This document shows, piece by piece, positions 47,498 through 62,489 of a DNA stretch of 64,000 nt. This stretch comes from Halosolutus gelatinilyticus (GTDB taxonomy: Archaea > Halobacteriota > Halobacteria > Halobacteriales > Natrialbaceae). Position numbers and translations under genes: made by a program. Positions within the stretch are counted from its first letter, which is position 1. Every line of letters begins with the position of its first letter. The notes under the pieces are model-generated. The model worked only from the letters and a program-made list of their open reading frames with translations, was not told the origin of the DNA and searched no databases. The DNA is taken from NCBI RefSeq assembly GCF_023028105.1, contig NZ_CP095491.1:558001-622000 (forward strand), given 5' to 3'.

Positions 47498-47677
47498 TTA
47501 CACCTTGGCCCAGTTGTGTTTACCGGTCTGCTCGCTGTGTCCGTCGTACTGTTCGTTGATCATCTCTCGAACGGCCGACCGGATCGCTTCGCTCCGGTTC
47601 GGGAACTCGCCCGAGTCGACCAGTTGTTCGACCTCCTCGATCTGCTGTTTCGGGATTCGCAGTGTCACACGCTCCAT
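47498..47677 (-). CDS. cdrS: Cell division regulator CdrS (ribbon-helix-helix)
   Basis: A 59-residue RHH protein: [20 protein letters not shown] and [19 protein letters not shown] give one beta-strand and two helices. CdrS is known in Halobacterium and Haloferax as the short regulator encoded just before ftsZ2 and controlling division. The ftsZ2 ATG comes two bases after its stop, and cdrL lies upstream, as known for this cluster. The longer frame to 47758 is ignored because it crosses the operator array in the leader. Confidence 0.9.
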
Positions 47678-47697
47678 GGTTGTATTCCCCGTTGGGG

Positions 47698-47869
47698 GTA
47701 AGACGGTTCGCGCGCCCCTGTCAGACGCGCCGCGTCTTACGTCGGAAACGCCCGACATCGGGCGTTTTCCGGCATCGGCCGGCCGCTGTAAGACAACCGT
47801 CTTACGCGACTAATGGAGTTACTGTCTGGCATAATAAAACTTTCGTCGGACGGACTTTCAGTGTCTTAC
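47698..47869 (-). promoter_or_regulatory. GTAAGAC operator array and hairpin upstream of cdrS-ftsZ2
   Basis: Five exact copies of GTAAGAC or its complement GTCTTAC occur at 47698-47704, 47734-47740, 47788-47794, 47799-47805 and 47863-47869. The third and fourth form a palindrome, GTAAGAC-AACC-GTCTTAC. A nearly perfect hairpin (CGGAAACGCCCGA/TCGGGCGTTTTCCG, 47743-47771) lies among them. The likely promoter box on the - strand is GTTTTATTATG (about 47835), so most copies fall in the 5' untranslated region. The RHH proteins CdrL or CdrS are the obvious binders, which is inferred. Confidence 0.6.
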
Positions 47870-47888
47870 GACTGTCGTCGGATACGAC

Positions 47889-48428
47889 TTACGGCGAGTC
47901 GAGCACGTCCGCTGCAGGGGTCCGGCGACCGCAGCCGGGGCAGAACGCCCAGTCCGATCGGAGCTCGTCACCGCACTCGCAAAACGTCCGATGAGACGCC
48001 TTCTCGCCGCAGTTTGGGCAGTAAACGTGATCGGCGTCGATCGTTTCACCACACTGCCCGCACTGGTGATCGGAGCCGATCGCGTCGTGTCGCACATCCG
48101 TCGGCGGTTGTGTGACAGTTGTATTACGACTCGTCCGCTCGCCCTCGAGCGAGATGTTCACGTTGACGTCCTGCGGCTCGCCGACGCTGGATTCTCGAAG
48201 CCGGTCCGCGAGCAGCGTGTCGACGCGCTCGCGAATCAGGCCGTCGATCGGTTCGGTGCCGTCCCCCGGCGAGGTCCGTTCCGCACGCTGGTCCGCGCTC
48301 CCGCTTTGCGACCCGCTATCGGCGAGGTGCGATCGCAGCGCTTGACGCATCACCTCGCTTTTCGACGCGTCGAGCGCCTCGAGTTGCTCGACGAGCTCGT
48401 CGTCGGCGCGGAACGTGACTTTGCTCAT
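47889..48428 (-). CDS. cdrL: Cell division regulator CdrL (ribbon-helix-helix with double zinc ribbon)
   Basis: A 179-residue protein. Residues 1-40 form an RHH domain (MSKVTFRADDELVEQLEALD, then ASKSEVMRQALRSHL). A linker of about 80 residues follows, and the C-terminus holds two zinc ribbons: CGQCGETIDADHVYCPNCG and CECGDELRSDWAFCPGCG. This is the layout of CdrL, which is known to control the cdrS-ftsZ2 operon in haloarchaea. It is on the same strand, 211 bases upstream of cdrS, and separated from it by the operator array. Confidence 0.88.
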   Translation of the reverse strand: MSKVTFRADDELVEQLEALDASKSEVMRQALRSHLADSGSQSGSADQRAERTSPGDGTEPIDGLIRERVDTLLADRLRESSVGEPQDVNVNISLEGERTSRNTTVTQPPTDVRHDAIGSDHQCGQCGETIDADHVYCPNCGEKASHRTFCECGDELRSDWAFCPGCGRRTPAADVLDSP

Positions 48429-48581
48429 GACGTTCGATTCCCTCGTATGTTACAACGTTACCTCTATCATTCATTCTTCCGTTCATCAATGTTTCGGCGA
48501 CCTGTCCCGTGGTGGCACACTATCACATTCGACGGGAATGATAACCCTTATGTCCGCACCAGGGACTACGTTGGAGTGTAA

Positions 48582-48655
48582 CCGCCCTTAGCTCAGACTG
48601 GTAGAGCAGTCGACTGTAGATCGACTTGTCCCCCGTTCAAATCGGGGAGGGCGGA
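48582..48655 (+). tRNA. tRNA-Tyr (anticodon GTA)
   Basis: A 74-base cloverleaf. The acceptor arm is CCGCCCT/AGGGCGG with A as discriminator, giving the C1-G72 pair typical of archaeal tRNA-Tyr. The D arm is in GCTCAGACTGGTAGAGC, the anticodon arm is GTCGA-CTGTAGA-TCGAC with GTA at positions 34-36, and the T arm is CCCCG-TTCAAAT-CGGGG. There is no intron and no encoded CCA. The 3' end is repeated 8.9 kb downstream next to an integrase remnant. Confidence 0.95.
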
Positions 48656-48814
48656 CTCGGATTCTCGCCGAATCGTAGTTGAACCGGGTACTGACGTTTA
48701 CAGCAGTAACAGAGCTTCTATCCGCAGGTCTATCGACCGCGAATCGGATTCCAAATCCGGTGTGGAACTTGAGTCAAGTCGGGGGTGGCCGCCTGCTGGC
48801 GGTTTTTGTAGTCG

Positions 48815-49066
48815 ATGCGCGGGGTGGTCGGCGTGACGATCGCGCTCTGGCCGTCGGCCGGCAACTCGTCGACATGCGAGCACTGCGGCACCCACGTCAG
48901 CGATCGATTCTGCCGCGTCTTTGGTGACGATCGCGATCGTGCCCACCGCTGCGGCGAGTGCGATTCCTACCGACGATTAAGCCGCGGCTCCGCTGCGGGG
49001 AAAGACGTCGCGATCCCCGGTCCGGAGACGTCACCCGGCCGTCACGGAGGTGAGGCTGATGTCTGA
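48815..49066 (+). CDS. DUF7563-like zinc-finger protein
   Basis: An 83-residue protein whose core, TCEHCGTHVSDRFCRVFGDD, then HRCGECDSYRRLSRGSAAGK, has two CxxC pairs and resembles the small haloarchaeal DUF7563 family (CxHCGxHVxxRFxRVFGD...CxEC). The cysteines would bind zinc. The N-terminal 20 residues are not typical, so the start (ATG 48815) is uncertain. A degraded relative lies beyond the att copy at 57720-58005. Confidence 0.68.
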   Translation: MRGVVGVTIALWPSAGNSSTCEHCGTHVSDRFCRVFGDDRDRAHRCGECDSYRRLSRGSAAGKDVAIPGPETSPGRHGGEADV

Positions 49067-49225
49067 GTTCGTGCCGGCGAATCAGCTGTATGACGTCGGT
49101 AGTCAGACGCCCATAGCCCATCCAGCCCAGCAGGCGACTGACGAGCACGTTCGTCGCGCTGTTGAGAACCAAGAGTGCAAGATTCGAACCAATGGGGGGG
49201 TCGCTCCTCGAGCGGTATTGAGCAA

Positions 49226-49453
49226 TTAGGACCTGTATTCGAGTTCCTTCACGCTGTTGGCGATATCGTAGAGGAGATAGACCGCAGCGAGTCCGATCCC
49301 GATTTGCATCCACGTTGTTACGGTTCCAAGGCTATTGGTGAATTCGATAGCGCCCCACAGTCCAACGAATGCGGAGACGAGAATGATTGCGGACACTACC
49401 AGGATGTTCTTCACTGGCGGGTTAGACTGCGGAGATTCCTGTCGTTCGCCCAT
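49226..49453 (-). CDS. Small two-helix membrane protein
   Basis: A 75-residue protein with two predicted membrane helices, NILVVSAIILVSAFVGLWGA and TWMQIGIGLAAVYLLYDIAN, with a short hydrophilic N-terminus and a C-terminal KELEYRS. The family is not recognised. It is transcribed opposite to the flanking element genes. A comparable small - strand membrane gene occupies the parallel place in the second element (58038-58223). Confidence 0.6.
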   Translation of the reverse strand: MGERQESPQSNPPVKNILVVSAIILVSAFVGLWGAIEFTNSLGTVTTWMQIGIGLAAVYLLYDIANSVKELEYRS

Positions 49454-49560
49454 GATGATGGCATTTCACTGAGGGGACATCGATCTATTGCTTCTATCGA
49501 ATACGAATCAGAAAACAGGAGATCACTACAGACGGTCTACGAACAGGTCGGTGATTCTCG

Positions 49561-49672
49561 ATGACTCGCCTCGTCGAATCTGACGAGTGCAAACGCTGCG
49601 GTGATCGGCTCACCGGCCTTCGCCGGCTCTGCACGTGACTGTACGCGCGACGTGCGGGAGGGACCGCTATGA
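49561..49672 (+). pseudogene. Short zinc-finger gene with a one-base frameshift
   Basis: From ATG 49561 the frame reads MTRLVESDECKRCGDRLTGL then RRLCT and stops at TGA 49636-49638. Adding one base of shift gives a third and a fourth cysteine (ARDCTRDVREGPL) and a stop (TGA 49670-49672) that overlaps the ATG of the next gene in an ATGA. The conserved CxxC and the coupling argue that the intact protein was about 37 residues, now broken at about 49630. Confidence 0.5.
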
Positions 49673-50190
49673 GTTCACGAACGTCGCCCCTCGAGAGTCC
49701 GAAAGCCAGCGGCGACGCGATCGAGGCCGCAGTCGTTCAGGACGTCACCGAACTCGAATACATCGGCGATCGGACGGCCAGCTGGCACGACGCGCGGACG
49801 TCAGCGCTCCTCGAGCCGCGGCGATCGCTGCCGTTCTATGGCATCGTTCTCGTCGAGACGGGAGTTCCAATCGAAATCAAGGGCTGCCAGATCGAGACGA
49901 GTAACGGGAGTCGATCGACGCGCGGGCGGTTCTACGTCAAACGCGCAGCCCACGAGCAGCTGGTCGACGCGGCCGGGATGTATCTGTTCGTCGTCTACCT
50001 GCCGCGACCGGGGTTGCCCCAGGTCGCCCGCGCGATCGTGCCCGCCTCGATCGTCGACGAACTCCTGGCCGGACGATGGTACGACGTAGACGGCTCGCGC
50101 TCCGAGCAAGAGGTCGCGAAACTCGCGTGGTCGCACGTGATCGATCCGGCGAACGTCGATCCGACGGTAACAGTGGGTGATCGGTTGTGA
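49669..50190 (+). CDS. Predicted PD-(D/E)XK nuclease-like protein
   Basis: A 173-residue protein I do not know by name. It shows the arrangement of PD-(D/E)XK nucleases: an early helix with a glutamate (SGDAIEAAVVQDVTELEYIG), a strand YGIVLVETGVPIEIKGCQIE that carries the E-x-K core, and a downstream strand MYLFVVYLPRPGLPQVARAI. The nuclease call rests on this pattern only. It overlaps both neighbours by four bases (ATGA and GTGA), so it belongs to one transcription unit with the zinc finger and the next two genes. Confidence 0.55.
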   Translation: MSSRTSPLESPKASGDAIEAAVVQDVTELEYIGDRTASWHDARTSALLEPRRSLPFYGIVLVETGVPIEIKGCQIETSNGSRSTRGRFYVKRAAHEQLVDAAGMYLFVVYLPRPGLPQVARAIVPASIVDELLAGRWYDVDGSRSEQEVAKLAWSHVIDPANVDPTVTVGDRL

Positions 50191-50504
50191 GTTCCGACGC
50201 CGAGCACGGTCGCGCCGATCGGTCCGACGACGTTCGCGACCTGGAGGGCGAACTCGCGAGCACGAGTGCGGGACACGTCGGCATTCCCGTCGACGCGATT
50301 TGTGTGGGTTGTGGGCGAATCCGGGTCAAGCGCGCCGATCCCGAGGAGATGGGTCAGCATCCACAGGTCGACCCGACAACGCTTGACGCGACGGGTCTCA
50401 CGTCGTTTACGCACGTCTGTCACCCGTGTGGGAGCGTGACCTGGTGGAACCCGGTGGCGGTGCTGACCGGCTTACTCGACGCTGAGCGCGATCGGGGTGA
50501 GTGA
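50187..50504 (+). CDS. Small zinc-ribbon protein
   Basis: A 105-residue protein with two CxxC pairs, AICVGCGRIRVKR and HVCHPCGSVTWWNP, about 45 residues apart, which fits a zinc ribbon. The N-terminal 30 residues are charged and disordered. It starts at GTG 50187 overlapping the TGA of the nuclease-like gene and ends overlapping the following GTG (GTGA). No known function. Confidence 0.6.
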   Translation: MSSDAEHGRADRSDDVRDLEGELASTSAGHVGIPVDAICVGCGRIRVKRADPEEMGQHPQVDPTTLDATGLTSFTHVCHPCGSVTWWNPVAVLTGLLDAERDRGE

Positions 50505-51052
50505 GGGTGCCGCAGGTCGCGACGACGCCTCACGAGATCGAGGGACGCTGGAAGCGGCCCGACTGGGGTCGTGGTCCGTACGACGCGCTCTCGTCGGTCA
50601 TGCTCGGCCCGCCATTCGAGGGATACCTGGAGTTGGACGTCGAGGTCAACAGCGAGCCATGGCACCTAAAAGTGACATACAGCAAATCGGGGATCGCCCC
50701 GCGCCTGTCGGACGGAATTAACGTCGAGTGGCTGTACGAGTGGGACATCGTGGGCCGTGGGCGCGGCGAGCGGAAAGCGTCGTACAACATCTCGCCGCGA
50801 TTCCCGAATATGCGCCACTGGGAGAGCGGTGAGCCGCTTCGACTCCCGTGGGAAAACCAGGTCGGCGAGATCGACGGTGTCGACGTCGAATACCGCACCA
50901 GTAACATCGAACCAGAACGCGGGCTCGAGTTGCTGCCGGAGTTCTTCGCGGCGATTTTCGACGAAGCAGGCGAGCGCGTTCATCCTGAGTACTTCCGGAC
51001 CGACCCACATCCGGCGAGCACGATGTGGGCGTACGAGCGGTCGTCCGAATGA
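50501..51052 (+). CDS. Hypothetical protein of the element
   Basis: A 183-residue soluble protein (PQVATTPHEIEGRWKRPDWG at the start, HPASTMWAYERSSE at the end). The central part has alternating beta-strand-like segments such as GYLELDVEVNSEPWHLKVTY and GERKASYNISPRFPN. I do not recognise a family. Translation would start at GTG 50501 overlapping the previous stop, and its own stop overlaps the following ATG. Confidence 0.6.
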   Translation: MRVPQVATTPHEIEGRWKRPDWGRGPYDALSSVMLGPPFEGYLELDVEVNSEPWHLKVTYSKSGIAPRLSDGINVEWLYEWDIVGRGRGERKASYNISPRFPNMRHWESGEPLRLPWENQVGEIDGVDVEYRTSNIEPERGLELLPEFFAAIFDEAGERVHPEYFRTDPHPASTMWAYERSSE

Positions 51053-51606
51053 CGCGCGAATGGGCGCGCAAGCTCTCGTCGGCCGGTGTGCTCCAGAAGG
51101 TGGCACTGCACCTCTCGGACGTGGAGGGAGTCAAAGCCGAGTTGCACATCAACAACAGGGAGGTGATGAACCACCAGAACCGGCTGTTCCTCGATCCCAC
51201 GTCGGTGTAGGAACTCCTACCGGGTCACACCTACGGCCGGAAATTCGAGATCTACCAGCTGAAAGATCCCGACGCGGTCTCGAAAGACTACCCCTCGTCC
51301 CATCCGAAGGTCGAGGTGCTGGTGAACAAGAAGATGAACGACGGCCAGGCGCGGGCGTGGGCCGATCGCCATGAAGTGACGAAGGAGATCGAGGAGACGT
51401 TGCTGAACGCGCTGCACTGGGAGCGCGCAGCGCGAAACGCCCCTTGGCGGGTGTCGCCAAGGCGACAGCGCCAAAAAACTACAGCGCCCCATCCGCTTCT
51501 GGATGCAGAACTCCAGTTGAAGCATATGAAAATAGGGGTCCCCTTATTCTGCAAAGATAGTCGAAAGCAGTATTACGTACAGTCTCTGTCAGTATTGGTA
51601 CCCTGA
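51049..51606 (+). pseudogene. Hypothetical protein gene with an in-frame amber codon
   Basis: The frame begins at ATG 51049, four bases inside the preceding gene's end, and reads MTREWARKLSSAGVLQKVAL through NHQNRLFLDPTSV to TAG at 51208-51210. The same frame then continues without a gap: ELLPGHTYGRKFEIYQLKDP, KVEVLVNKKMNDGQARAWAD, to TAA at 51604. Composition is equally protein-like on both sides. The stop is the only lesion, so it is a recent nonsense mutation or a readthrough site. The last 45 residues are less typical and may mark a junction. Confidence 0.62.
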
Positions 51607-51822
51607 GCACAGAGCGTAGTCACTTTCCGCGTTTCTATTCACAGTTTTGAAGGAGCCGTGAGATAGAGTCACACTCCTAAGCCAGCATTTATGGGCCTGA
51701 GGGTTTTAACGAAGTTAGATCAATTGCGGATTTCAAAGAGGAACGACGGATCCATCCCACAACTACCAACCTTTGAAAGCCGCTTATGGCCGTCAATCCG
51801 CCGATCATCCCAAACAGAAAAT

Positions 51823-53814
51823 ATGAGTAAAAAACAACAAAATGACTCGCTTGAGAAATTCGGGCTTGAGGCCACACTGGATGCAGTGCAAAAACGTCGG
51901 GAAGTGAGCCAGACACAAAGCCTTCACGAGAAGGACGAAGGGAACGACCACCTCGCGTCCATCTACGAAAGTCAAGAAGATCAATTTGAGACGGCCGTTC
52001 CCTTCATTAAGGAGGGCCTCAAGCGGGGCGAACGGTGTCTGTACGTCGCGGATGACAGCACGACAGAGGCGGTTCTAGATGCGTTTCGCGAGGGCGGCAT
52101 CGACGTAAAGACGGCTCGCGAATCCGGAGCCCTGTCGATCGTCACAAAATCTGATACGTACCTGCGCACGGGTGAATTCGACCAACAGGCGATGCTGGAT
52201 TTCTGGCAGGAGACGCTCGCCGAGGCGCGTGATGAGGAGGGTTACGAAGGTGTTCGAGCCGCCGCCGAGATGACATGGGCCCTCGATGAAGGAACAGGCC
52301 TTGATCGGCTCGTCCAGTATGAGGCGATGCTCAACACCATTTATCCCGGCGAGGACTACGTCGTGCTCTGTCAGTACAACCGCGAGCGCTTCCCGGAGGA
52401 AGTCATCTCAGACGTTATCCGAACGCATCCGCTGGTAGTCTACGGCGGCAGGGTGTGTCAGAATTTCTATTACCACCCGCCAGAAAAGTTCTTCGACACC
52501 GACAGCCCAGCTCTCGATATCGATCGGGCAGTGGAGGAACTCATCAGTCGCTCCCGAACGCGAGATGCCCTCCAAGAGAGGGAACAGCAACTTCAGTCGC
52601 GACTTCATCAACAGAAAATCGTCACTGAACTTGGACAACAAGCGCTCGAAGATGGCGATCTCGACCAGTTGATGCACGACGCCTCCGTGGCCGTCGCCGA
52701 AACGCTGGACAACGAGTACTGCAAGGTACTCGAATTGCTACCGAGTGGAGATGAAGTCTTCCTCAGGCAGGGTGTCGGCTGGCGAGACGGGCTCGCCGGC
52801 AATGCGACAGTCCCGACCGACCTGGATTCGCAAGCTGGCTACACGCTTCTCTCTGAAGAGCCGATCATCGTCGAGGACCTGCGCACCGAGGAGCGGTTTA
52901 GCGGGCCCGAGTTGCTCACCAGTCACGACGTCGTCAGCGGCATCAGCGTCATCATCGGGACCGTCGAGGAGCCCTGGGGCGTGCTCGGAACCCATACAAC
53001 CGATGAACGGGAGTTCACCGAATACGACGTTAATTTCGTCCAGAGTGTTGCCAACTTGCTCGCCGCAGCGATCGAACGCCACGAGTATCAGAATGAACTC
53101 GAGCAAACAGTCTCGCAACTCGAAGAGTCGAACAAACGCCTCGAACAGTTTGCATACGCCGCATCCCACGATCTGCAAGAGCCGCTGCGGATGGTATCCA
53201 GTTACAACGAATTGATTGAAGCCCGCTATGGGGACGAACTGGATGAGGACGCCAAGGAGTATTTAGAGTTCGCTATCAACGGTGCGGATCGAATGCGCGA
53301 GATGATCGATGCCCTGCTTGAGTACTCGCGCATTGATACAAATGGGGGCGAATTTGCGCTGACCGACTGTAACGCAGTACTGGAGAGTGTCCACGACGAC
53401 TTGCAGTTCAAAATCGACGAAAAAGACGCCGAGACCACCGTCGATTCGCTTCCGACCGTGTATGCAGACAAGAGTCAACTGACCCAAGTATTCCAAAATC
53501 TGCTGAGCAACGCGATCAAGTATAGCGGCGACGATCCCCCGAAAATCTCCGTCGATGTCGAGCAACGCAATCACGAGTGGGTGTTCGCCGTCAGCGATAA
53601 TGGGATTGGAATCGACCCTGAGAAAACAGACCAGATATTCGATGTTTTCCAGCGACTCCACAGCCGCGACGAACATGAGGGAACTGGAATCGGCCTCGCG
53701 CTCTGTCAACGCATTATTGAGCGCCACAACGGACGGATTTGGGTAGAATCTGAGCCGAGTGAGGGATCGACATTCTTCTTTACGCTACCTATTAAAAATA
53801 CGGCAAATGACTGA
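51823..53814 (+). CDS. Sensor histidine kinase with MEDS and GAF domains
   Basis: A 663-residue cytoplasmic kinase. An N-terminal MEDS-like domain runs to about residue 230 (FIKEGLKRGERCLYVADDST, VLCQYNRERFPEEV). A GAF domain follows (about 260-420), then HisKA with the phosphorylated histidine in YAASHDLQEPLRMVSSYNEL and HATPase with N box QNLLSNAIKYSG, G1 DNGIGIDPEK and G2 GTGIGLALCQRI. Base composition is lower in GC than the flanks, with codons such as AAT, ATT and GAT common, which suggests recent transfer. ATG 51823 is used. It overlaps the response regulator by eight bases. Confidence 0.93.
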   Translation: MSKKQQNDSLEKFGLEATLDAVQKRREVSQTQSLHEKDEGNDHLASIYESQEDQFETAVPFIKEGLKRGERCLYVADDSTTEAVLDAFREGGIDVKTARESGALSIVTKSDTYLRTGEFDQQAMLDFWQETLAEARDEEGYEGVRAAAEMTWALDEGTGLDRLVQYEAMLNTIYPGEDYVVLCQYNRERFPEEVISDVIRTHPLVVYGGRVCQNFYYHPPEKFFDTDSPALDIDRAVEELISRSRTRDALQEREQQLQSRLHQQKIVTELGQQALEDGDLDQLMHDASVAVAETLDNEYCKVLELLPSGDEVFLRQGVGWRDGLAGNATVPTDLDSQAGYTLLSEEPIIVEDLRTEERFSGPELLTSHDVVSGISVIIGTVEEPWGVLGTHTTDEREFTEYDVNFVQSVANLLAAAIERHEYQNELEQTVSQLEESNKRLEQFAYAASHDLQEPLRMVSSYNELIEARYGDELDEDAKEYLEFAINGADRMREMIDALLEYSRIDTNGGEFALTDCNAVLESVHDDLQFKIDEKDAETTVDSLPTVYADKSQLTQVFQNLLSNAIKYSGDDPPKISVDVEQRNHEWVFAVSDNGIGIDPEKTDQIFDVFQRLHSRDEHEGTGIGLALCQRIIERHNGRIWVESEPSEGSTFFFTLPIKNTAND

Positions 53815-54265
53815 GGCCGACGTCAACCTTCCGGATAGCGCTGATGTACTTCTCGTTGAGGATAATCCTGGCGATGTCCGCCTCATGAAAGAGGGATTCG
53901 ACGCCAGCCCGTTCGATCTCACCGTCCACACTATTAATAACGGAGATGATGCCCTTGATTTTATCTTTCAGCGCGGCGACTATGTCGCCGCACCTCAACC
54001 GGATCTCGTGATCCTCGATCTCAACTTACCACGCACGAATGGCGACGTCGTTCTGGCCGAACTCAAGCGTGATCCTGATCGCTGCCGCATTCCCGTCATC
54101 GTATTCACGAGTTCACAGGCGGAAGACGACGTACTCACATCATATGACCATCACGCGAATGCCTGTGTCACGAAACCCGACCATGCGACAGAGTTCATCG
54201 AGACGATCGGCAGGGTTGTCGAATTGTGGTTCGCTCTCGTTCGGCTACCAGCCGACGAGGAGTGA
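53807..54265 (+). CDS. Response regulator, single receiver domain (Rcp1-like)
   Basis: A 152-residue receiver with the acidic pocket in DVLLVEDNPGDVRLMKEGF, the phosphoryl-acceptor aspartate in LVILDLNLPRTNGD, the Thr/Ser in IVFTSSQAEDDV and the lysine in CVTKPDHATEF. There is no output domain. Its ATG lies eight bases inside the kinase stop, so both are co-translated. The pair probably acts through another effector. Confidence 0.92.
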   Translation: MTEADVNLPDSADVLLVEDNPGDVRLMKEGFDASPFDLTVHTINNGDDALDFIFQRGDYVAAPQPDLVILDLNLPRTNGDVVLAELKRDPDRCRIPVIVFTSSQAEDDVLTSYDHHANACVTKPDHATEFIETIGRVVELWFALVRLPADEE

Positions 54266-54424
54266 GCATACTGTACACGCCGATCACGTTATCCGGAGGA
54301 ACCTCAGAAATCTCGGTGGTAGGTTAGCATCTGCACATAACGAAGCGCACCTCATAACATAGTTTTGACTTGGTTCTGGTTACCCACTCCCAGGAGTCAC
54401 ACGTCGCGAAAGCCGTTTTCACGA

Positions 54425-54460
54425 ATATGAACACGAACCGAGTACCTGCCGTGTTCATAT
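54425..54460. promoter_or_regulatory. Eleven-base inverted repeat
   Basis: ATATGAACACG and CGTGTTCATAT, with a 14-base spacer, are a perfect inverted repeat. It lies between the response regulator gene and the DUF7692 gene, 60-90 bases before an A/T box (CTTATTTATAAA, about 54522). It could be an operator for the following gene. Confidence 0.4.
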
Positions 54461-54588
54461 CGAGCCGATCGTCGTCACGATCGCCCCAGTCACCGTACCG
54501 ATCGTGTCGGTCTTCGACACCTTATTTATAAACGAACCCCGTTCGAATGAACCGAAAAAACTAGAAATAGCCGGTCGTGTTCACGGCC

Positions 54589-54879
54589 ATGGCTCGCAAC
54601 GAGACGCCCGGATCGGTCCGAGTTCGCACTGACGACGGGAACGAATGGCGATATGACGCGATCGAGAAAGCCGCGAGATTCTACGATTGTAACCGATCGA
54701 ACGCGATCGCCTTCGCATGCAATGACGTCGATACGCTCGTAACCGCGGCTCGGCGTGTTTTGGAGCGCGACGATCTGACGCTCAAGCAGCGCCGGGAGAT
54801 CGCCGAGACACTGAGCACGAAAGCTGTCAGTTTTGACGTTGAGACTGAGGTAGCCGTTCAGACGAAAGGAGAGATGTGA
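54589..54879 (+). CDS. DUF7692-like protein
   Basis: A 96-residue protein with the layout of the haloarchaeal DUF7692 family: SVRVRTDDGNEWRYDAIEKA at the start, a helix-rich middle (DVDTLVTAARRVLERDD) and the conserved DLTLKQRREIAETLSTKAVS followed by a short beta C-terminus. Function unknown; it is common in plasmids and element regions. A decayed relative with a stop in place of the glutamine (DLTLQ-stop-RREIVETL) lies at 59893-59979. Confidence 0.68.
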   Translation: MARNETPGSVRVRTDDGNEWRYDAIEKAARFYDCNRSNAIAFACNDVDTLVTAARRVLERDDLTLKQRREIAETLSTKAVSFDVETEVAVQTKGEM

Positions 54880-54941
54880 CTGGCGGGAAAATCTCTGTGC
54901 GGCTTTGCTCTGCCGATCCCTTCGAAATTGATAGATGGGCG

Positions 54942-54970
54942 CTGCTGAATAGAGAGCTTCTATCCAGCAG
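54942..54970. repeat. Hairpin containing a motif shared with two other sites
   Basis: CTGCTG-A-ATAGA pairs with TCTAT-C-CAGCAG around GAGCT. The central AGAGCTTCTATCC recurs at 48711-48723 (56 bases after the tRNA), and AGAGCTTCTA at 59007-59016. It looks like an insertion-sequence or MITE terminus. I see no transposase next to it. Confidence 0.4.
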
Positions 54971-55296
54971 AGCATTACAAACAGGGCAGTATACTGTTGG
55001 ACGTGACTGATTGTAGGTGAGCTGCTGAGGCGATCCAGAACTTTCTCATTCCGTCTTTCGACCGGCAGTATCTCACCACCAAACGAACTGAATACGGGAG
55101 TCGTTCGTCCACGTGCAGCCAGTGATTGATTTCACCCTCTGGAATTCGATCAGGGGTGGACGATTTTCACTAGATTACTACATTACTACCCCCCACGTCG
55201 TATTATCTATGGCTCACAAGTATGGGAAACCAGAACCCGAAACCAGCAAGAAGCGATCAGAGGACGCCACGGGACACGATAACTAAAGAAAACATA

Positions 55297-55947
55297 ATGA
55301 TGGATGAAAACACACGATTCGACGGCGTATCTCGCAGAAACCTGCTGAAAGCCAGTGCTGTCGGAATAAGCACAGCAGGGTTGGCAGGCTGTACGGTCAC
55401 GGACGCCTCGCAGGACGCTCCCGCCCCCGCTCCAGAACTGGATCTCGAAACATTGGAGGCTGACACGGAGTTCGGAACCCTCCAGGCGGCGCGTGCAGAG
55501 ACTTCGTATGTCGGCCCGGTCGACAACGGCCAGGCAATTGGCATCGCCTTCCTCGACGAAGTTGGTGCCGGAAATAACCAGGATCGCGACGATGAGATCG
55601 TCGTTCATCTGTACGATCGCGAGGACCTCGCGATCATGCTCGGCGAGGTCGATGCTGCGGGTGCAGCGACGCTCGAAAGCGAGGAGATCAGCGACTTCGA
55701 TGCCACCGTCGAGCTCGCCATGGAGACTGACGTCGTGTCCGGGACGGTGGCCGTCCACGGAGAATCGTCCACCCCATTCACGGCTGACGCCGCGACCGGT
55801 GTCGGCGGCGTCTATTGGGCGCACGGAACTGACGAGGAGCCCGACGTCAGCACTGATTGGGTCGTCCTCCCCGACGGCCGCCAATGGGGCTGTCTTTGTT
55901 TTCCGCCATACGCCAGTCCCTGCTGTGCGATGCAGCGGGTGGCCTGA
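55297..55947 (+). CDS. Tat-exported lipoprotein of unknown function
   Basis: A 216-residue protein with the signal VSRRNLLKASAVGISTAGLA ending in lipobox LAGC. The mature part is acidic and rich in alternating beta segments (IGIAFLDEVGAGNNQDRDDE, VVHLYDREDLAIMLGEV), and its C-terminal end holds four cysteines (WGCLCFPPYASPCCAMQRVA). Metal or disulfide chemistry is possible. ATG 55297 is preferred because an A/T box near 55200 would start the message after the upstream ATG 55222. Confidence 0.72.
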   Translation: MMDENTRFDGVSRRNLLKASAVGISTAGLAGCTVTDASQDAPAPAPELDLETLEADTEFGTLQAARAETSYVGPVDNGQAIGIAFLDEVGAGNNQDRDDEIVVHLYDREDLAIMLGEVDAAGAATLESEEISDFDATVELAMETDVVSGTVAVHGESSTPFTADAATGVGGVYWAHGTDEEPDVSTDWVVLPDGRQWGCLCFPPYASPCCAMQRVA

Positions 55948-56110
55948 TGGTTTCGGTACGGGGTGGCGGCTCTTCGGATCCGAAGGGGTCGTAGCAGGGT
56001 GATCGTAGGGAGCGTATTTCTTTCAGACATTCCCCACTGAACCAACGCTCAGTATGCGTGTCTATCGAACGGCCACCTTGACGAAAATATTGTTCGAGAG
56101 CGACTGCCGT

Positions 56111-56380
56111 TCAGGTGGACACGGGGCCACGCGTCCAGCCAGGGTCGTGGCCGGTGCGGTCTATGAGATCGGACCGACACGCCGGACAGTAGTCAGGGGT
56201 GACGGATTCACTTCGGGGAACGTACACCGCGCCGCCACACTTCACGCACGCATCCGCGACGATGGTCGCGCAGTCCGCACAGACGCTGAAATCGTCAGCC
56301 GTGAGTTCGCGCAGGGGTTCAAGCTGTTTATCGAGGAGATACTCGTCGATAGCCGACTGGCAGTTCTGGCACGGTTTCAT
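56111..56380 (-). CDS. Zinc-ribbon protein (DUF7571-like)
   Basis: An 89-residue protein with three CxxC pairs: KPCQNCQSAID, VCADCATIVADACVKCGGAV and YCPACRSDLIDRTG. This resembles the haloarchaeal DUF7571 zinc-ribbon family. Role unknown. The start at 56380 leaves the family length. Confidence 0.68.
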   Translation of the reverse strand: MKPCQNCQSAIDEYLLDKQLEPLRELTADDFSVCADCATIVADACVKCGGAVYVPRSESVTPDYCPACRSDLIDRTGHDPGWTRGPVST

Positions 56381-56561
56381 GGCGATGCATGTTATACCTC
56401 TTGACCGCACGGTAAATACCTGCCTCCGAAACCGAACTGACTGCCGAAATCCGAACGAACTGTACGCGCGACCAACCGTTCCGCGTGTGTATTAAAACAA
56501 GAGCCGTGGTACCGCGACGCTCGGAAGTGTTATCAGTCACCGGAGACAACATTTGGTTGTA

Positions 56562-56768
56562 ATGGCAAACGGAAAAGTTGATTTCTTCAACGATACTGGC
56601 GGCTACGGTTTCATTTCGACTGACGACGGCGATCTCGACGACGACGAAGACGTTTTCTTCCACATGGAGGATGTCGGCGGAGAAGACCTGACGGAAGGTA
56701 CTGAGGTCGAGTTCGACATCGAGTCCTCACCGAAGGGACCTCGCGCGGCGAACGTCGTCCGGCAGTAA
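56562..56768 (+). CDS. cspA: Cold-shock protein
   Basis: A 68-residue nucleic-acid-binding OB-fold protein: ANGKVDFFNDTGGYGFISTD (RNP1-like KVDFFNDTGGYGFI) and DVFFHMEDVGGEDLTEGTEV (RNP2-like VFFHM). It is an acidic haloarchaeal CspA homologue, an RNA chaperone. The start at ATG 56562 drops a three-residue extension. Other haloarchaea carry it as a stand-alone gene. Confidence 0.93.
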   Translation: MANGKVDFFNDTGGYGFISTDDGDLDDDEDVFFHMEDVGGEDLTEGTEVEFDIESSPKGPRAANVVRQ

Positions 56769-57016
56769 TACCGAGACGCACCCGTCGCTCACAGCGACAA
56801 ACAATACTCTCGTTTTTTCAGACGGTTACACGGTCCACCTGAGGCTATCTATACACTCCAGAAACACCGACATCGAGAACGTTGTGTGACCGATACGCGC
56901 TCTGTATTCAACACGGCTGCGGAAAGCTACTAGAAATTATGAAAATTCAATAGAGGATCAGAAAACGTCTGCAATCGCGAGCTTCGCCTGCTTGGTGTGC
57001 GGTGATCGCCGCCGTG

Positions 57017-57255
57017 CTACCGGAGCACGGGCAGGCTCGAAGCTGCGATCGCTTTCGTCCGAAGAATCTGCGTACCGGTGCCTCGCCGTCGATAGACCGC
57101 GAAGCCGTACCAGCCGCCCGCTCGAACGATTTTTGAATGGGAGCGCTTGTACACCTTGAAGTCGCCCAGATTTCCGTCCGCGTGCCGATGGGCTGTCGCT
57201 TTGAACTCCCCATGGGGTGCCGTCCTTCTCTCCGTCGTACCAGCTCGTTCTATCC
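57017..57255 (-). pseudogene. C-terminal fragment of an element protein
   Basis: On the - strand the frame reads ERRTAPHGEFKATAHRHADG, NLGDFKVYKRSHSKIVRAGG and WYGFAVYRRRGTGTQILRTK to the stop at 57017. It is well organised and basic and has no reading-frame damage. Upstream of about 57255 the same frame is merely the antisense of the integrase remnant, so the N-terminus is missing. The end (AASSLPVLR) is similar to the middle of a frame at 60308-60667 (VASSLPALR). Confidence 0.45.
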
Positions 57256-57261
57256 GGCGGC

Positions 57262-57500
57262 CGTCCTCGTCAACGAGATCGTCGAGTATCTCGAACGATA
57301 CGAGTACGCGAGTCGCCGGCACATCATCGTACTCATGCTCTGGCACACCGGATGCCGCGTCGGTGAACTCCGTGGGCTTGACCTCGGAGATCTCGACCTG
57401 GAGGGCGATCGCCCCGGCGCCGACGGGCCAGCGGTCCACTTCGTCCACAGACCTGAGACGGGGACACCTCTGAAGAATGAACGCGATTCACCAAGACGAC
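57262..57500 (+). pseudogene. Tyrosine recombinase (integrase) fragment
   Basis: About 75 residues match the catalytic-domain start of haloarchaeal integrases: VNEIVEYLERYEYASRRHII, VLMLWHTGCRVGELRGLDLG (with the first catalytic arginine) and VHRPETGTPLKNERD. The N-terminal core-binding domain and the His-x-x-Arg/Tyr end are missing. The frame continues over the att-like repeat at 57535-57549 into unrelated sequence, so the gene was truncated at the element edge. Confidence 0.72.
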
Positions 57501-57534
57501 CGACGAGAGGTATCGAGCGGACAGTACCCCTATA

Positions 57535-57549
57535 CGGGGAGGGCGGACT
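57535..57549 (+). repeat. Putative attR: 15-base copy of the tRNA-Tyr 3' end
   Basis: CGGGGAGGGCGGACT is identical to 48643-48657, which covers the T-stem 3' arm, the acceptor 3' arm, the discriminator and two flanking bases. It lies 35-60 bases after the integrase remnant. A copy of the tRNA 3' end next to an integrase is the expected mark of tRNA-targeted integration. Confidence 0.6.
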
Positions 57550-57719
57550 TCCCTTCCTTTCGAACTGTGGTAGTACCCGAAAGCCGCGTATTCGGGCGTA
57601 TCCGTACCTCTATCGTCCAAATGTATATCGGGAACCCTCCCCAAAAATCGTGAGCGGAACTCGCGTCTAATCGGGGGTCGACGCCGCCCTTCGAATTTTG
57701 TTGTTGGAGGTGACGCCTG

Positions 57720-58005
57720 ATGCAGCGCTGGGACGGTTCCGATCGCGATCCTCAGCGCTGTCTCGAGTGCAGATCGCACATCACTCCCGAATTCTGACGC
57801 GGGTACGCGGCGAAAAGATCGAGTACACCGGTGTCGCGACTGTGACACGTATACGCGTCTAAGCGACGGTAGTGCCGCTGGAAAGGACGTTCCGATAGCT
57901 GACCCTCTTGAGGACCCCGCTCGGTTTAACGAGTGCTACGAGGATCTTCCGTCTCACGTCAAAGCGGTCGTCAAGGTAATTCTGGTGGGGTCGCGACGGT
58001 GGTGA
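57720..58005 (+). pseudogene. Decayed DUF7563-like gene
   Basis: From ATG 57720 the sequence reads QRCLECRSHITPEF then a stop, while another frame supplies RCRDCDTYTRLSDGSAAGKD and the tail ECYEDLPSHVKAVVKVILVG to TGA 58003-58005. The pieces match the zinc protein at 48815-49066 (CEHCG...HRCGECDSYRRLSRGSAAGKDV) but contain at least one stop and frame changes. It lies 171 bases beyond the att-like repeat. Confidence 0.6.
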
Positions 58006-58037
58006 GAAGCGGTGAGTGACCACTGTGCGAGCGGTAC

Positions 58038-58223
58038 TTACAGGTCGGCTCTCTGGTCAAGGCCGAACAACCAGAAGGCCTCGTTACCGATCACGTATAG
58101 AGTGATCAGCGCGCTGAAGTGTAATAGTGGAAAGGGTTCAGACGCTATCACCGCGAATAGGGAAAACTGTACTGCGAAAACCATCAGCAGCAGATTTCGT
58201 AATCGACGGGATTCCGTGTTCAT
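58038..58223 (-). CDS. Small membrane protein
   Basis: A 61-residue protein with two hydrophobic stretches, NLLLMVFAVQFSLFAVIASE and FSALITLYVIGNEAFWLFGL, and a basic N-terminus (MNTESRRLR). An A/T-rich promoter-like run (AATATGTATTACTG on the - strand) precedes the start by about 30 bases. Function unknown. Confidence 0.5.
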   Translation of the reverse strand: MNTESRRLRNLLLMVFAVQFSLFAVIASEPFPLLHFSALITLYVIGNEAFWLFGLDQRADL

Positions 58224-58301
58224 ATTTACTATCGAACAGTATCTCAGTAATACATATTCTGATTCTCGTCGCGATCGTCGGTCAATACACGCGGATACCG
58301 A

Positions 58302-58705
58302 TCAGTCGATCTCACATTCTGAGAACTCTACGCGAAATAACGGGGATGAGCAGCGGTGAGTCTCGAACAGTTCGTCGCGCGCCGAGTCACTTCGAGAGGT
58401 GACAAGAAACCAGGTCCGGGAAATCGCCTGTTCGGTCTGCTCGACGAAGTTCGAGCACACGGAAGGCATTGAGAGGTCCCGGTTCGTCGGCTCACTGAGG
58501 CCGACCGCGATCGATCCTCGAAGACCGCGGCCGTGACTACGTTCGGTCGCAGGGCTATCAGTGCCGAAGCGACGAAGTCGTGTTGTCCTGTGCGACTCCG
58601 GGCCCGGAGCGGCCTTTTCTGATCTTCGTCGCGGGCGTACGCGCACGCGCCCTCGAGAATCCGTTCAACCGTCGTACTAATCCGGTCGCAGCGTTCTGTG
58701 GACAT
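58302..58705 (-). pseudogene. Frame-disrupted hypothetical gene
   Basis: On the - strand, from ATG 58705, the frame reads STERCDRISTTVERILEGAC and HDFVASALIALRPNVVTAAV in protein-like fashion. It then turns into a shadow, while a second frame gives VCSNFVEQTEQAISRTWFLV and ends FRVEFSECEID. A single shift near 58500 would join them. The end is shared with a short stretch at 59603-59615 (ATTCTGAGAACTC on the + strand). Confidence 0.35.
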
Positions 58706-58747
58706 CGTTACGTAACGATCGGTGTCCTTTGAGACAAATCGGATCAA

Positions 58748-59306
58748 GTGAATGCTAGATCCTATATAAGAAAGAAACGGGCGAACAGAGTCCTAAATCT
58801 ACAGGCGCTTACGGAGCACACTCTGGGTGAAATACGCTAAGATTGTGTTTATTCACCCCGCTTGATTGGTACAATCGCACTCCCTTTATCTCCTGCCCAC
58901 ACGCATCACAGACCATTATCGTGTTTACGCGTTCGACTTATAAATCGGTATTGTGACTACTGGAATGATAACAGAGAGCGCGCGAACTAAGCGCTCTGTA
59001 CTTAGCAGAGCTTCTAAAAGCGACAATCAATCTCGAATTTCAACGAGATCAGTAGGATAGTTCCAGATCGATGTTTCGAGTCGGTTCTCACCGCCGTCAA
59101 GGCGATCAACCGGGAGATGAACGTTTTTGATCTCACCACGGCCGTCCACCAGACCGTCTCACAGAAGGTCGTCTTTCGGCAGCGGTTACTACGATGGAAC
59201 CATTCTATCGCTGGCTAGTATCCTTCGCCCCAATATCGTCACTGCGCCCGCCTCAACATCGGTCCCGGCGCGTTTTCGGCGACGATCGCTCCGCGAGCGG
59301 TGCCGC
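58748..59306. other. A/T-rich stretch without a supported gene
   Basis: I see no gene here. There is a GTGTTTATTC run (58847) like the arm of the palindrome at 19568-19589, and an AGAGCTTCTA copy at 59007-59016. The sequence looks like decayed element DNA. Confidence 0.4.
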
Positions 59307-59501
59307 TCATTCCCCGGTCAGGCCGCCAGGGGAGGATTCGTCGTCGAGATCATTGATTAACAGGAACTCGGTCGACCCGCAGTCGCAGCTGTCGCTTCCG
59401 ATCGGCTGGATGTCACCGGTAGGCCACTGGCGAGCCGCATAGACAGATCCACATTCGGCACACTTAGCTAGTTCTCTGTTCACGTCATCCCTATTTGCCA
59501 T
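59307..59501 (-). CDS. Small zinc-finger protein
   Basis: A 64-residue protein with CAECGSVYAARQWPTGD and SDSCDCGSTEFLLIND: four cysteines in a CxxC and CxC arrangement that could hold one zinc. The N-terminus starts MANRDDVNRELAKC. It is of the kind of short zinc protein common in haloarchaea. Function unknown. Confidence 0.55.
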   Translation of the reverse strand: MANRDDVNRELAKCAECGSVYAARQWPTGDIQPIGSDSCDCGSTEFLLINDLDDESSPGGLTGE

Positions 59502-59639
59502 GCCTCAGCGCCGTAGACGCGCTACGTCTCGAATTAAGGTTTCTATCGGGAAAACTGTCGACCGGCGCTCACGTTGGCCGGGAACCGGGCGCTCGAGTTC
59601 AGATTCTGAGAACTCCACGAGAAGCGAAGGGGTGGCCGG

Positions 59640-59780
59640 CGGGCCGCCTCGTCGAATCCGACGAGCGGAACGCTGCGGCGATCGCACCGGCTTTCGTGGC
59701 AGTGCACCGGCTTTCGTCGTAGAGTGGTCGTACGCGCGTCACGCGGGCCGCTACGAGTTCGTGGACGGCATCCCGCAAGC
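59640..59780 (+). pseudogene. Relic of the short zinc-finger and nuclease-like genes
   Basis: The DNA aligns with 49568-49760: CGCCTCGTCGAATCCGACGA, GTACGCGCG before the nuclease-like start, GCTACGAGTTC around its N-terminus and GCGGTCGTCCAGACC near its first helix. The ATG of the nuclease-like gene is ACG here, and there are several frame changes. Confidence 0.6.
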
Positions 59781-59892
59781 GTCCGAACGCCGGCACCGGC
59801 GAGATCCTGGCCGCGGTCGTCCAGACCGCCGCCGAACTCGAGGGTGACGACGGACATCCGAATCTGTGGCTGCGGGCCGTCGCGTCCCGAAG

Positions 59893-59979
59893 CGCGGCGA
59901 CCTGACGCTTCAGTAACGCAGGGAGATCGTCGAGACGCTGCACACGCGAGCGGTCGCGTTCGCCGTCGGATCGGCGGTA
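59893..59979 (+). pseudogene. Relic of a DUF7692-like gene
   Basis: The frame reads RGDLTLQ, TAA, then RREIVETLHTRAVAFAV. It matches ERDDLTLKQRREIAETLSTK in the intact gene at 54589-54879, with the CAG glutamine codon changed to TAA. The N-terminal half is missing, apparently deleted up to the nuclease-like relic. Confidence 0.6.
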
Positions 59980-60053
59980 ATTGCTCGGACGAACGAAGAG
60001 GCGCGTTCGATACGCTCGAGACGGCAACTCGAGGGTTCGACCCGCGATCGGGT

Positions 60054-60311
60054 TCAAACTAGCAACAGGGCTGCCACCACCGCCAGGACGAGAATACAAG
60101 CCACGACGGCGATCGTTTTCGTGCGACTGCGGGAGTTACTCTCAGTCGGTTGGTGTTCGCGCCGCAACTCCGGCCCGAGCGTGTTCGCTGCAGCGACGTT
60201 CGGACAATCGTGTTTCTCGGGGAGTTTGTGGCTCGTACAGTGTTTCCGACCGCAGTAGTTACAGGTGTAGGGCATGTCCGTCTCGTCTCCGCAAACGCTG
60301 CATTCGGTCAT
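60054..60311 (-). CDS. AN1-type zinc-finger membrane protein
   Basis: An 85-residue protein. The N-terminal zinc finger is ECSVCGDETDMPYTCNYCGR continuing KHCTSHKLPEKHDC, the Cys/His pattern of AN1 domains, and a C-terminal membrane helix is TIAVVACILVLAVVAALLLV. In haloarchaea such finger-plus-helix proteins are common and of unknown role. Its ATG overlaps the stop of the following upstream frame (ATGA). Confidence 0.8.
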   Translation of the reverse strand: MTECSVCGDETDMPYTCNYCGRKHCTSHKLPEKHDCPNVAAANTLGPELRREHQPTESNSRSRTKTIAVVACILVLAVVAALLLV

Positions 60312-60667
60312 GGGGACTGTATTGGAAGGAGAGCATCATAAGCGATCGGTTCCAGACGGTCAAACGCGCCGGAAATCGCCGTTCTCGCCCGCTCGGTCCC
60401 GATAATCGACGCCGCGTACCGCAGCGCGGGCAGGCTCGAGGCGACGATCGTCACAGTTCGATCGCCGGGCTCACGCGACCGCCGACCGTCCTCGACGATC
60501 GCGGTCAGTTCGTCGCAGGGATCGGTCGCGAGGGAGGGCGTTCGATTCGCGTCCCGTGCATCCGTGTCGTACCGGCCGCCGACGGTGCGCGCCAACGCGT
60601 GTCGACTTGCTGGCGATACAGTTGACGAAAGATGCCGACAAAATAGCGGTTCAATGATCGGCAACAA
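60308..60667 (-). CDS. Hypothetical protein coupled to the AN1 gene
   Basis: A frame ending at 60308 with protein-like sequence DELTAIVEDGRRSREPGD, IVASSLPALRYAASIIGTER and AFDRLEPIAYDALLPIQSP. Its stop overlaps the AN1 start in ATGA, which favours a real gene. The N-terminal third looks less convincing, so the start is unknown. The VASSLPALR stretch resembles the end of the fragment at 57017-57255. Confidence 0.4.
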   Translation of the reverse strand: MLPIIEPLFCRHLSSTVSPASRHALARTVGGRYDTDARDANRTPSLATDPCDELTAIVEDGRRSREPGDRTVTIVASSLPALRYAASIIGTERARTAISGAFDRLEPIAYDALLPIQSP

Positions 60668-60703
60668 TATTCAAGACAACTTGATAACCAGTAGAACGTA
60701 TTC

Positions 60704-61138
60704 ATGGTTCGGTGTACCGATCGCGATCGCGCTGTAAATCCCGTTATCGGGACTGTGCTCTTGATCGGGGTTGCAGTCATACTCTCGGCGTCGATCGGGA
60801 CCTTTCTTATCGGGATGGCCAACGATCTGAGTGGAGGTGCACAGGGGGCAGTCGAAGTATCACATAGTGTCCAAGACCCCGATGACGGATTTATCACCAT
60901 CTCATCGGTATCGATGCAGCGCGCTGACCGGATCACTATCACGGCGACCGATGTTGACGGCGCGGATCGACTCGAAGGTGGTGCTTCTGTGCTCGCCGAC
61001 GAGATTCGGACAGTCGGAGGCTCCGTAACGATCAGACAGGATAGCGATCACGAGGGCGATGTCGACGTCTCAATCGTCGCGATCGCCGAATACGGGGACG
61101 ATTCGGCGCTGATTTTCGATCGAGAGTACAGAATATGA
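60704..61138 (+). CDS. Archaeal type IV pilin-like protein
   Basis: A 144-residue pilin-type protein. The N-terminal class III signal and hydrophobic helix are DRAVNPVIGTVLLIGVAVIL, with a PibD-type site (RDRAVNPVIG) and the Asn-Pro seen in haloarchaeal pilins. The rest is a beta-rich head (ITITATDVDGADRLEGGASV). It would be assembled into surface fibres or remain a pseudopilin. The stop overlaps the next gene by four bases. Confidence 0.85.
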   Translation: MVRCTDRDRAVNPVIGTVLLIGVAVILSASIGTFLIGMANDLSGGAQGAVEVSHSVQDPDDGFITISSVSMQRADRITITATDVDGADRLEGGASVLADEIRTVGGSVTIRQDSDHEGDVDVSIVAIAEYGDDSALIFDREYRI

Positions 61139-61395
61139 TCGGGCCGCTCGAACACTACCTTCCGAACCAGGCGACAAAGACCACGCTCTACCATGCCGTT
61201 CGCTGGGGGCTGCGCGTATACATCGTCAGCCTGCTCGTGACTGGCGCGTACAGCGCGCTCTGGATCGCGGAACTCGCCGGGATTATCCCCGAAGCGTGGC
61301 TCTCGACGATCTGGCTCGCGATCGCCGCGATGGGAGTAATCTTTCTGGTGCTGCTGATCCCGCTCTTCCACACGTCTCGATCGACGAAGCGGTAG
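61135..61395 (+). CDS. Small three-helix membrane protein, coupled to the pilin
   Basis: An 86-residue protein with two to three hydrophobic segments: YIVSLLVTGAYSALWIAELA and LSTIWLAIAAMGVIFLVLLI, ending in a basic tail (HTSRSTKR). Its ATG overlaps the pilin stop (ATGA). It may help to insert or anchor the pilin; that is inferred from position. Confidence 0.65.
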   Translation: MIGPLEHYLPNQATKTTLYHAVRWGLRVYIVSLLVTGAYSALWIAELAGIIPEAWLSTIWLAIAAMGVIFLVLLIPLFHTSRSTKR

Positions 61396-61734
61396 CGCAG
61401 GACCGATAAAGGGGATCGGTCGCATAACATCCCATTTCTTGTGCGGCCGTATTACGCGTCTCAGAGCGCAGATCGCGCTACGTCGAACGTCGTAGCAGAT
61501 GCCCATCTGCTACCGAGACAGACGGCACACATCACCGTCCCGGGTGTGACACGTAAACGCGGAGTAGCGATCGAGAGGGCCGAATACGAACGGTACGCGA
61601 TCGGGTCCGATCGAGAGTCCGACGCGGTTCGACGGACGCTGGAACAAGGCCGGTCGTCCGTTCGAGAGAGGTCGGTCGGAGAATCCGGCGGCGTCACGAT
61701 CGACGGACGAACGGCGATGAACGGTACTGCGCGA
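61396..61734. other. Interval without a supported gene
   Basis: About 340 bases. Open frames here run as arginine/serine-rich shadows and none has a promoter or coupling. I see nothing to annotate. Confidence 0.4.
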
Positions 61735-61896
61735 TCAGTTCTTCGACGGCGCGGTGTCGGAGTCGCCCTTGGACCGGAGTCGCGGTTTGAGCAGATACGC
61801 TCCGAAACCGGTCCCCGCTGCGAACGAGAGGACGGCGGCTACGACGATCCAGATCAGGTTCGGATGCTCGGCGCCTGTGTGAAGGAGTACGTCCAT
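61735..61896 (-). CDS. 53-residue membrane protein
   Basis: The product starts MDVLLHTGAEHPNLIWIVVA and has one clear helix (IWIVVAAVLSFAAGTGFGAY) followed by a short charged tail (KPRLRSKGDSDTAPSKN). Proteins of this type (MDVLLHTGxEHPNLxWI) recur in haloarchaea. ATG 61896 was chosen over an earlier ATG. Function unknown. Confidence 0.65.
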   Translation of the reverse strand: MDVLLHTGAEHPNLIWIVVAAVLSFAAGTGFGAYLLKPRLRSKGDSDTAPSKN

Positions 61897-61999
61897 ACGG
61901 TTCGCTTCTCGGCGGTCACCATAATTGTTTATACCGGCCACCCGAGCGCCGACTCGTCGGCTACGGCGCTTCCTGAACGCGTTTCCGAAAGTGACCTCG

Positions 62000-62389: not shown

Positions 62390-62489
62390 ACGCGATCGGT
62401 GGTCTCAGGACGGGAAAACCTGAACTCCGGGCTACTCATGGCCTTTATCTCAGTAATAATGGTTTCTCTGAGTATCGGTATTACGTGCT

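Follow-up and report, generated by a model that had tools for sequence, protein, structure and literature searches.

A run of overlapping reading frames in a haloarchaeal chromosome was singled out in the original prediction as a five-gene cassette and as a possible defence, competition or transfer system not yet described. It is a decayed provirus module of an ordinary sort, whose kind is known and has recently been characterised, and the five genes were a misreading. What had looked undescribed is a dead copy of the SNJ2-like pleolipovirus replication module (PMC13107129). The segment is very probably the decayed left part of an SNJ2-type provirus, or virus-derived element, at a tRNA-Tyr gene, in which that module persists as a relic. 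The DNA analysed, which we call the window, is a stretch of 64,000 nucleotides of the chromosome of Halosolutus gelatinilyticus (positions 558001-622000 of contig 1 of the organism's own genome). Features are listed below by window coordinates, with the five frames of the prediction numbered from 1 to 5.

48582..48656, plus strand: tRNA-Tyr (gta), the integration site (ARAGORN)
48643-48657, plus strand: attL core CGGGGAGGGCGGACT, a 15-bp exact repeat recurring at 57535-57549
48815..49066, plus strand: SNJ2 ORF25 homologue, zinc-finger-like protein (tblastn, 76% identity, residues 1-78 of 79)
49050..49229, plus strand: SNJ2 ORF24 relic, truncated (tblastn, 58% identity, residues 1-46 of 110)
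49561..49638, plus strand: SNJ2 ORF23 copy (frame 1), frameshifted and truncated (alignment with intact relatives)
49669..50190, plus strand: PD-(D/E)XK nuclease-like gene (frame 2), intact, SNJ2 ORF22 orthologue (phrog_2095, E 4e-42)
50187..50504, plus strand: zinc-ribbon gene (frame 3), intact (phrog_9494, E 2e-45)
50501..51422, plus strand: Rep-Arvir pseudogene (frames 4 and 5; DUF7845, SNJ2 ORF19 family; PF25227, phrog_3288)
51430..51540, plus strand: double-strand origin region, whose counterpart in relatives lies about 150-260 nt past the Rep stop
51452-51467, plus strand: origin hairpin TGTCGCCAAGGCGACA, which aligns with the SNJ2 nick-site hairpin
54385..54882, plus strand: DUF7692 gene (54577-54879) and flank, a further element gene (blastn, Pfam DUF7692)
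56960..57210, minus strand: SNJ2 ORF18 / HRPV-3 ORF6 nuclease copy, broken, a paralogue of the gene at 49669
57275..57478, plus strand: SNJ2-type tyrosine integrase relic, residues 138-200 (tblastn, 63% identity, E 6e-23)
57535..57549, plus strand: attR core, right end of the first element, an exact copy of the tRNA-Tyr 3' end
57817..57930, plus strand: second element, SNJ2 ORF25 relic (tblastn, 63%, E 9e-12)
59645..59841, plus strand: second element, relic of ORF23 and the start of ORF22 (blastn, 70% to 49567-49757, E 5e-21)

Boundaries and identity of the element

The 15-bp att repeat would be expected by chance in 0.0006 copies in the window; when a longer repeat was sought (27 bp, with at most 3 mismatches), only the tRNA itself was found. 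ORF25, ORF24, ORF23 and ORF22 follow the tRNA-Tyr gene directly and in SNJ2 order, the DNA of this region (gp25 to gp22) is 77% identical to SNJ2, much more than chance could produce, and the integrase relic sits just before attR. This anatomy agrees with that of SNJ2, whose integrase and ORF25 flank the attachment site. Neighbouring host genes are 77-84% identical to those of Natrialba chahannaoensis. Read from the DNA, gene order, the att repeat at tRNA-Tyr and the integrase relic together show the probable left part of a decayed SNJ2-like provirus, extending from approximately 48643 to 57549.

Both betapleolipovirus signature genes are present within these limits, yet both are broken: Rep, at 50501-51422, and the ORF6/gp18 relic, at 56960-57210. 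The latter is identified by tblastn (53% to gp18, with a stop), by phrog_2095 (E 4e-20, with one TAG) and by blastn to gp18 of locus L049. A further element segment, that with the DUF7692 gene, is matched by blastn in the related loci L048, L049, L051, L054, L056 and L060. The SNJ2 virion and NTPase genes (gp12-gp17) gave no tblastn match in 47501-64000; because no structural genes are left, we speak of a remnant or virus-derived element and not of a virus-producing provirus. In its original form it may have been a plasmid of viral origin and not a complete provirus. Inside the remnant, between the origin and the ORF18 relic, lie a MEDS-GAF-HisKA histidine kinase and a response regulator (51829-54265), a pair that is possibly cargo or a later insertion.

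The relics behind attR (57817-61000) are the "second element" of the original prediction and represent at least one more element, which suggests repeated integration at the same tRNA-Tyr. The prediction that this element holds a relic of part of the cassette was confirmed, with 49567-49757 recurring at 59645-59841. An ORF10-like piece is also found behind attR, at 60716-60940. Elsewhere in the same genome, more broken nuclease and Rep copies occur (G000:C1:1722226-1722621 and G000:C1:1885944-1886282), and no intact copy was found there.

Five reading frames and two intact genes

The five frames are all present, but they are not five separate intact genes: they derive from four, two of which are intact. 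Compared with intact relatives, frame 1 has one extra base and lacks nine others; intact ORF23 is a 39-aa CxxC...CxxC zinc finger, of which frame 1 retains 25 aa and three of the four cysteines. Two frames had been credited with zinc sites, and that of frame 3, with two CxxC motifs, is real, whereas frame 1 is a damaged zinc finger. The four-base overlaps said to join the frames are likewise real in part: those between nuclease and zinc ribbon (50187-50190) and between zinc ribbon and frame 4 (50501-50504) stand, that between frames 4 and 5 (51052-51055) was made by a frameshift, and frame 1 no longer overlaps the nuclease gene.

Frames 4 and 5, taken for two genes, are one DUF7845 gene split by this frameshift. 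Both match a single PHROG (phrog_3288), and PF25227 matches the region in three successive pieces (model positions 1-167, 173-224 and 226-295; E 4e-44, 5e-7 and 2e-21), where Rep in relatives is a single 539-aa frame. The lesions comprise the frameshift, near 51040-51055, and an in-frame TAG at 51208-51210. Furthermore, similarity to the relatives breaks at 51422 and the 3' part of the gene, encoding the wHTH and the C-terminal domain, is deleted; as 51430-51540 corresponds to a block that lies beyond the Rep stop in relatives, an internal deletion joined the gene stump to non-coding sequence. The end of frame 5, which runs through the TAG at 51208, was therefore non-coding origin sequence (approximately 51430-51540) taken for protein. 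The tyrosine that aligns with SNJ2 Y283 is still encoded, but both the frameshift and the TAG come before it, so that the gene can no longer yield a working Rep. By its sequence, the window Rep is a pseudogene of the family and not a working member, and the MarR-like wHTH is absent. Substitutions in the Rep piece (10 nonsynonymous and 3 synonymous in the window lineage, against 13 and 19 in the pooled relatives) hint at relaxed selection. No NCBIfam family was assigned to the window proteins.

The origin hairpin is conserved. Across 18 sequences, SNJ2 included, 99% of cells are paired, and the covariation score is 0.241 versus 0.079 in shuffles, with compensatory changes in two pairs. The window hairpin corresponds to the one shown by experiment to be required in SNJ2.

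The module in related loci

A scan of genome contigs recovered 21 related loci, and these SNJ2-like relatives bear out the suggestion that the cassette is carried by a family of mobile elements. Rep follows the nuclease in 20 of them. A gene-neighbourhood search found the order nuclease, zinc ribbon, Rep conserved in 13 of the 21; in one more locus the nuclease gene is represented by its end only, and six others have SNJ2-type ORF21 and/or ORF20 in the zinc-ribbon position. SNJ2 itself carries ORF21 (DUF488) and ORF20 where the window element has the phrog_9494 zinc ribbon, so that between nuclease and Rep the lineages have exchanged one piece of the operon for another, carrying either ORF21/ORF20 or the zinc ribbon. 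Most of the 21 loci run on into the pleolipovirus genes gp18, gp17, gp15 and gp14. Most of the related loci come from Natrialbaceae, where the order ORF25-24-23-22-zinc ribbon-Rep recurs, and most adjoin a tRNA gene (Pro, Ala, Arg, Met or Tyr). One of them (L057, Natrialba chahannaoensis) is an SNJ2-like provirus that occupies the same tRNA-Tyr and whose flank matches. In this provirus and in those of Natrinema thermotolerans (L042), Natrinema ejinorense (L044) and Halobiforma haloterrestris (L058), the zinc ribbon precedes Rep and, unlike in the window copy, the Rep frame and viral genes are largely intact. In L041 and L044 (7043-7885), a D12-class adenine DNA methyltransferase gene is located between ORF24 and ORF23, upstream of the nuclease.

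Among 125 genomes of the host's family, 99 encode DUF7845 and 58 the zinc ribbon, which usually neighbours the Rep gene on its upstream side: each of its 20 best matches immediately precedes a DUF7845 gene. In the highest-scoring DUF7845 loci (L005-L015), nuclease and zinc ribbon were absent within the 1.5 kb seen, and thus Rep is also used by other elements. Searches of phage records with the zinc ribbon and the first Rep piece (tblastn) gave no match; the isolated viruses carry other Rep branches, and the window Rep and RepSNJ2 are on different branches, with about 25% identity. Among IMG/VR viral contigs, no relatives were found by a single-protein scan and only three, all distant, by an alignment scan.

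In Haloferax virus LSV-48N (L065, 2925-7876), which is lemon-shaped, an integrase, the nuclease, a DUF488-like protein, a DNA methyltransferase and a Rep-like gene annotated as "transcriptional regulator" follow each other in the same order. Going by this order, the replication module is apparently common to unrelated virus types.

The nuclease and its paralogue

The frame 2 protein is 79% identical to SNJ2 gp22. Residues E19, D41, E69 and K71 are invariant in an alignment of the ORF22 and ORF18 paralogues, and an ExK or DxK motif is kept in most of the nuclease homologues of more distant viruses. The AlphaFold2 model is of moderate confidence (pLDDT 69.8, pTM 0.74), and Foldseek with this model gave weak matches (best E, 3.7e-3), with many PD-(D/E)XK enzymes among the top-ranked chains; VIA-align returned NhoI (Z 10.5), PvuII (Z 8.3), archaeal Hjc (Z 7.5) and DpnI (Z 7.5). 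A profile of the nuclease searched against the sequences of solved structures gave chance matches only. The nuclease core proposed for frame 2 is thus upheld by structure prediction: the protein is predicted to have a PD-(D/E)XK fold with the active-site acids and lysine, and the predicted fold and E-D-ExK residues are common to NhoI, PvuII and archaeal Hjc. ORF18/HRPV-3 ORF6 belongs to the same protein family, but this paralogue is shorter and is separated from the window-type gene by the origin. In the window lineage, the nuclease has accumulated 9 nonsynonymous and 5 synonymous substitutions and in relatives 26 and 24. Some leftover function of the open nuclease and zinc-ribbon frames is conceivable.

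Proposed role of the module and alternative readings

DUF7845 was characterised in April 2026 (NAR) as Rep-Arvir, a rolling-circle initiator related to Rep_trans, in Natrinema virus SNJ2 (PMC13107129). In that virus, each of ORF19 to ORF26 is needed for replication of the excised genome, nonsense mutations having stopped the rise in copy number after excision; the operon promoter lies inside the integrase gene, so that the operon is complete only in the circle; and Rep with a 210-bp downstream hairpin region is enough for replication, albeit unstable (PMC13107129). The window element resembles SNJ2 in its ORF25-24-23-22...Rep-ori order, its SNJ2-type integrase, its integration at a tRNA gene and its hairpin origin, and it differs in its integration site, which in SNJ2 is tRNA-Met, and in being a broken copy that no longer has structural genes. 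We carried the SNJ2 genetics over to the window element by homology, with the zinc ribbon replacing ORF21/ORF20 and with a Rep of another branch. By analogy, the module most likely serves replication. In living relatives, excision and circularisation would join the operon, and a promoter in the integrase gene would drive the module genes; Rep would then most likely nick the hairpin via its tyrosine and initiate rolling-circle replication, and the nuclease would most likely process viral DNA in a supporting role, for replication or for maintenance. The window module itself cannot work, because Rep, cut before the catalytic tyrosine, also lacks its DNA-binding domain, and only a fragment of the integrase is left.

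An alternative for the living relatives is that the nuclease and its small partners form a toxin-antitoxin-like addiction device that retains the episome and takes no part in replication. The SNJ2 authors suggest an addiction role themselves, noting that ORF22 is a putative endonuclease by HHpred, that ORF26 is toxin-like and that Rep and origin alone are unstable (PMC13107129); furthermore, the best fold matches of the nuclease are restriction enzymes, and a D12 adenine methyltransferase lies just upstream of it in L041 and L044. We nevertheless consider addiction unlikely, if by no means far-fetched, given that a nonsense mutation in any of ORF19-26 blocks the increase in SNJ2 copy number after excision (PMC13107129), that the methyltransferase is found in only 2 of the 21 loci, and that the window proteins matched no toxin or antitoxin family. 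A restriction-modification reading, which had the D12 methyltransferases and the methyltransferase neighbours in LSV-48N and HHTV-1 to go on, was rejected as not general. Replication remains our preferred role for the module.

A narrower proposal concerns the nuclease family in betapleolipoviruses. HRPV-3 ORF6 (L070, 5064-5459) and SNJ2 ORF18 (L038, 4313-4696) are homologues of the PD-(D/E)XK-like SNJ2 ORF22. According to ICTV, the genomes of betapleolipoviruses contain single-stranded discontinuities, and two HRPV-3 genes to which no function is assigned, ORFs 6 and 9, are common to these viruses; ORF6 belongs to the nuclease family, and ORF9 is Rep. A profile search found the family in SNJ2 (twice), HRPV9 (twice), HRPV3, HHPV3, HGPV1, HFPV1, HRPV10, LSV-48N, HCIV-1, HHTV-1 and HRDV1 and did not find it in HHPV1, HHPV2, HRPV6 or His2; the HHPV4 homologue was matched by tblastn. 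It is therefore present in all betapleolipoviruses tested (SNJ2, HHPV3, HHPV4, HRPV3, HGPV1, HFPV1, HRPV9 and HRPV10) and in none of the four alpha- or gammapleolipoviruses tested, and as the discontinuities are also a trait of the genus, the family becomes a candidate for making or trimming them. This proposal is improbable, however. The betapleolipoviruses are a single clade, in which co-occurrence may reflect shared ancestry; GCCCA, counted with the nick proposal in mind, is over-represented 1.8-fold in HRPV3 but stands at 0.6 to 1.1 in the other betapleolipoviruses (HRPV9, HRPV10 and HGPV1); members of the family are present in LSV-48N and HCIV-1 as well; and Rep itself is another candidate nickase.

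That the cassette is a free-standing defence, competition or transfer module is very hard to maintain: a nuclease and zinc proteins do form a compact operon with varying partner genes on a mobile element, but three window proteins (nuclease, zinc ribbon and first Rep piece) had no PADLOC match, the nuclease is followed by Rep in nearly every related locus, and a replication role is published (PMC13107129). Least credible of all is the idea that the host expresses all five frames intact, for although nuclease and zinc ribbon are open and the nuclease retains its conserved active residues, Rep carries a frameshift, a TAG and a deletion, frame 1 is frameshifted, and the integrase, which holds the promoter in SNJ2, is a fragment far downstream.

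Implications

The window thus loses its candidate for an undescribed system, which proves to be a known viral replication module in fossil form, with even the origin hairpin recognisable. What modest interest the segment retains rests on the nuclease paralogues. If the family did make or trim the site-specific single-strand interruptions of betapleolipoviruses, a nuclease acting beside the Rep origin would explain the joint occurrence of gene and trait. As a by-product of the analysis, the signature gene HRPV-3 ORF6 is recognised as a homologue of the PD-(D/E)XK nuclease and a paralogue of SNJ2 ORF22, and it offers a gene to test for the long-standing question of how these genomes become nicked.
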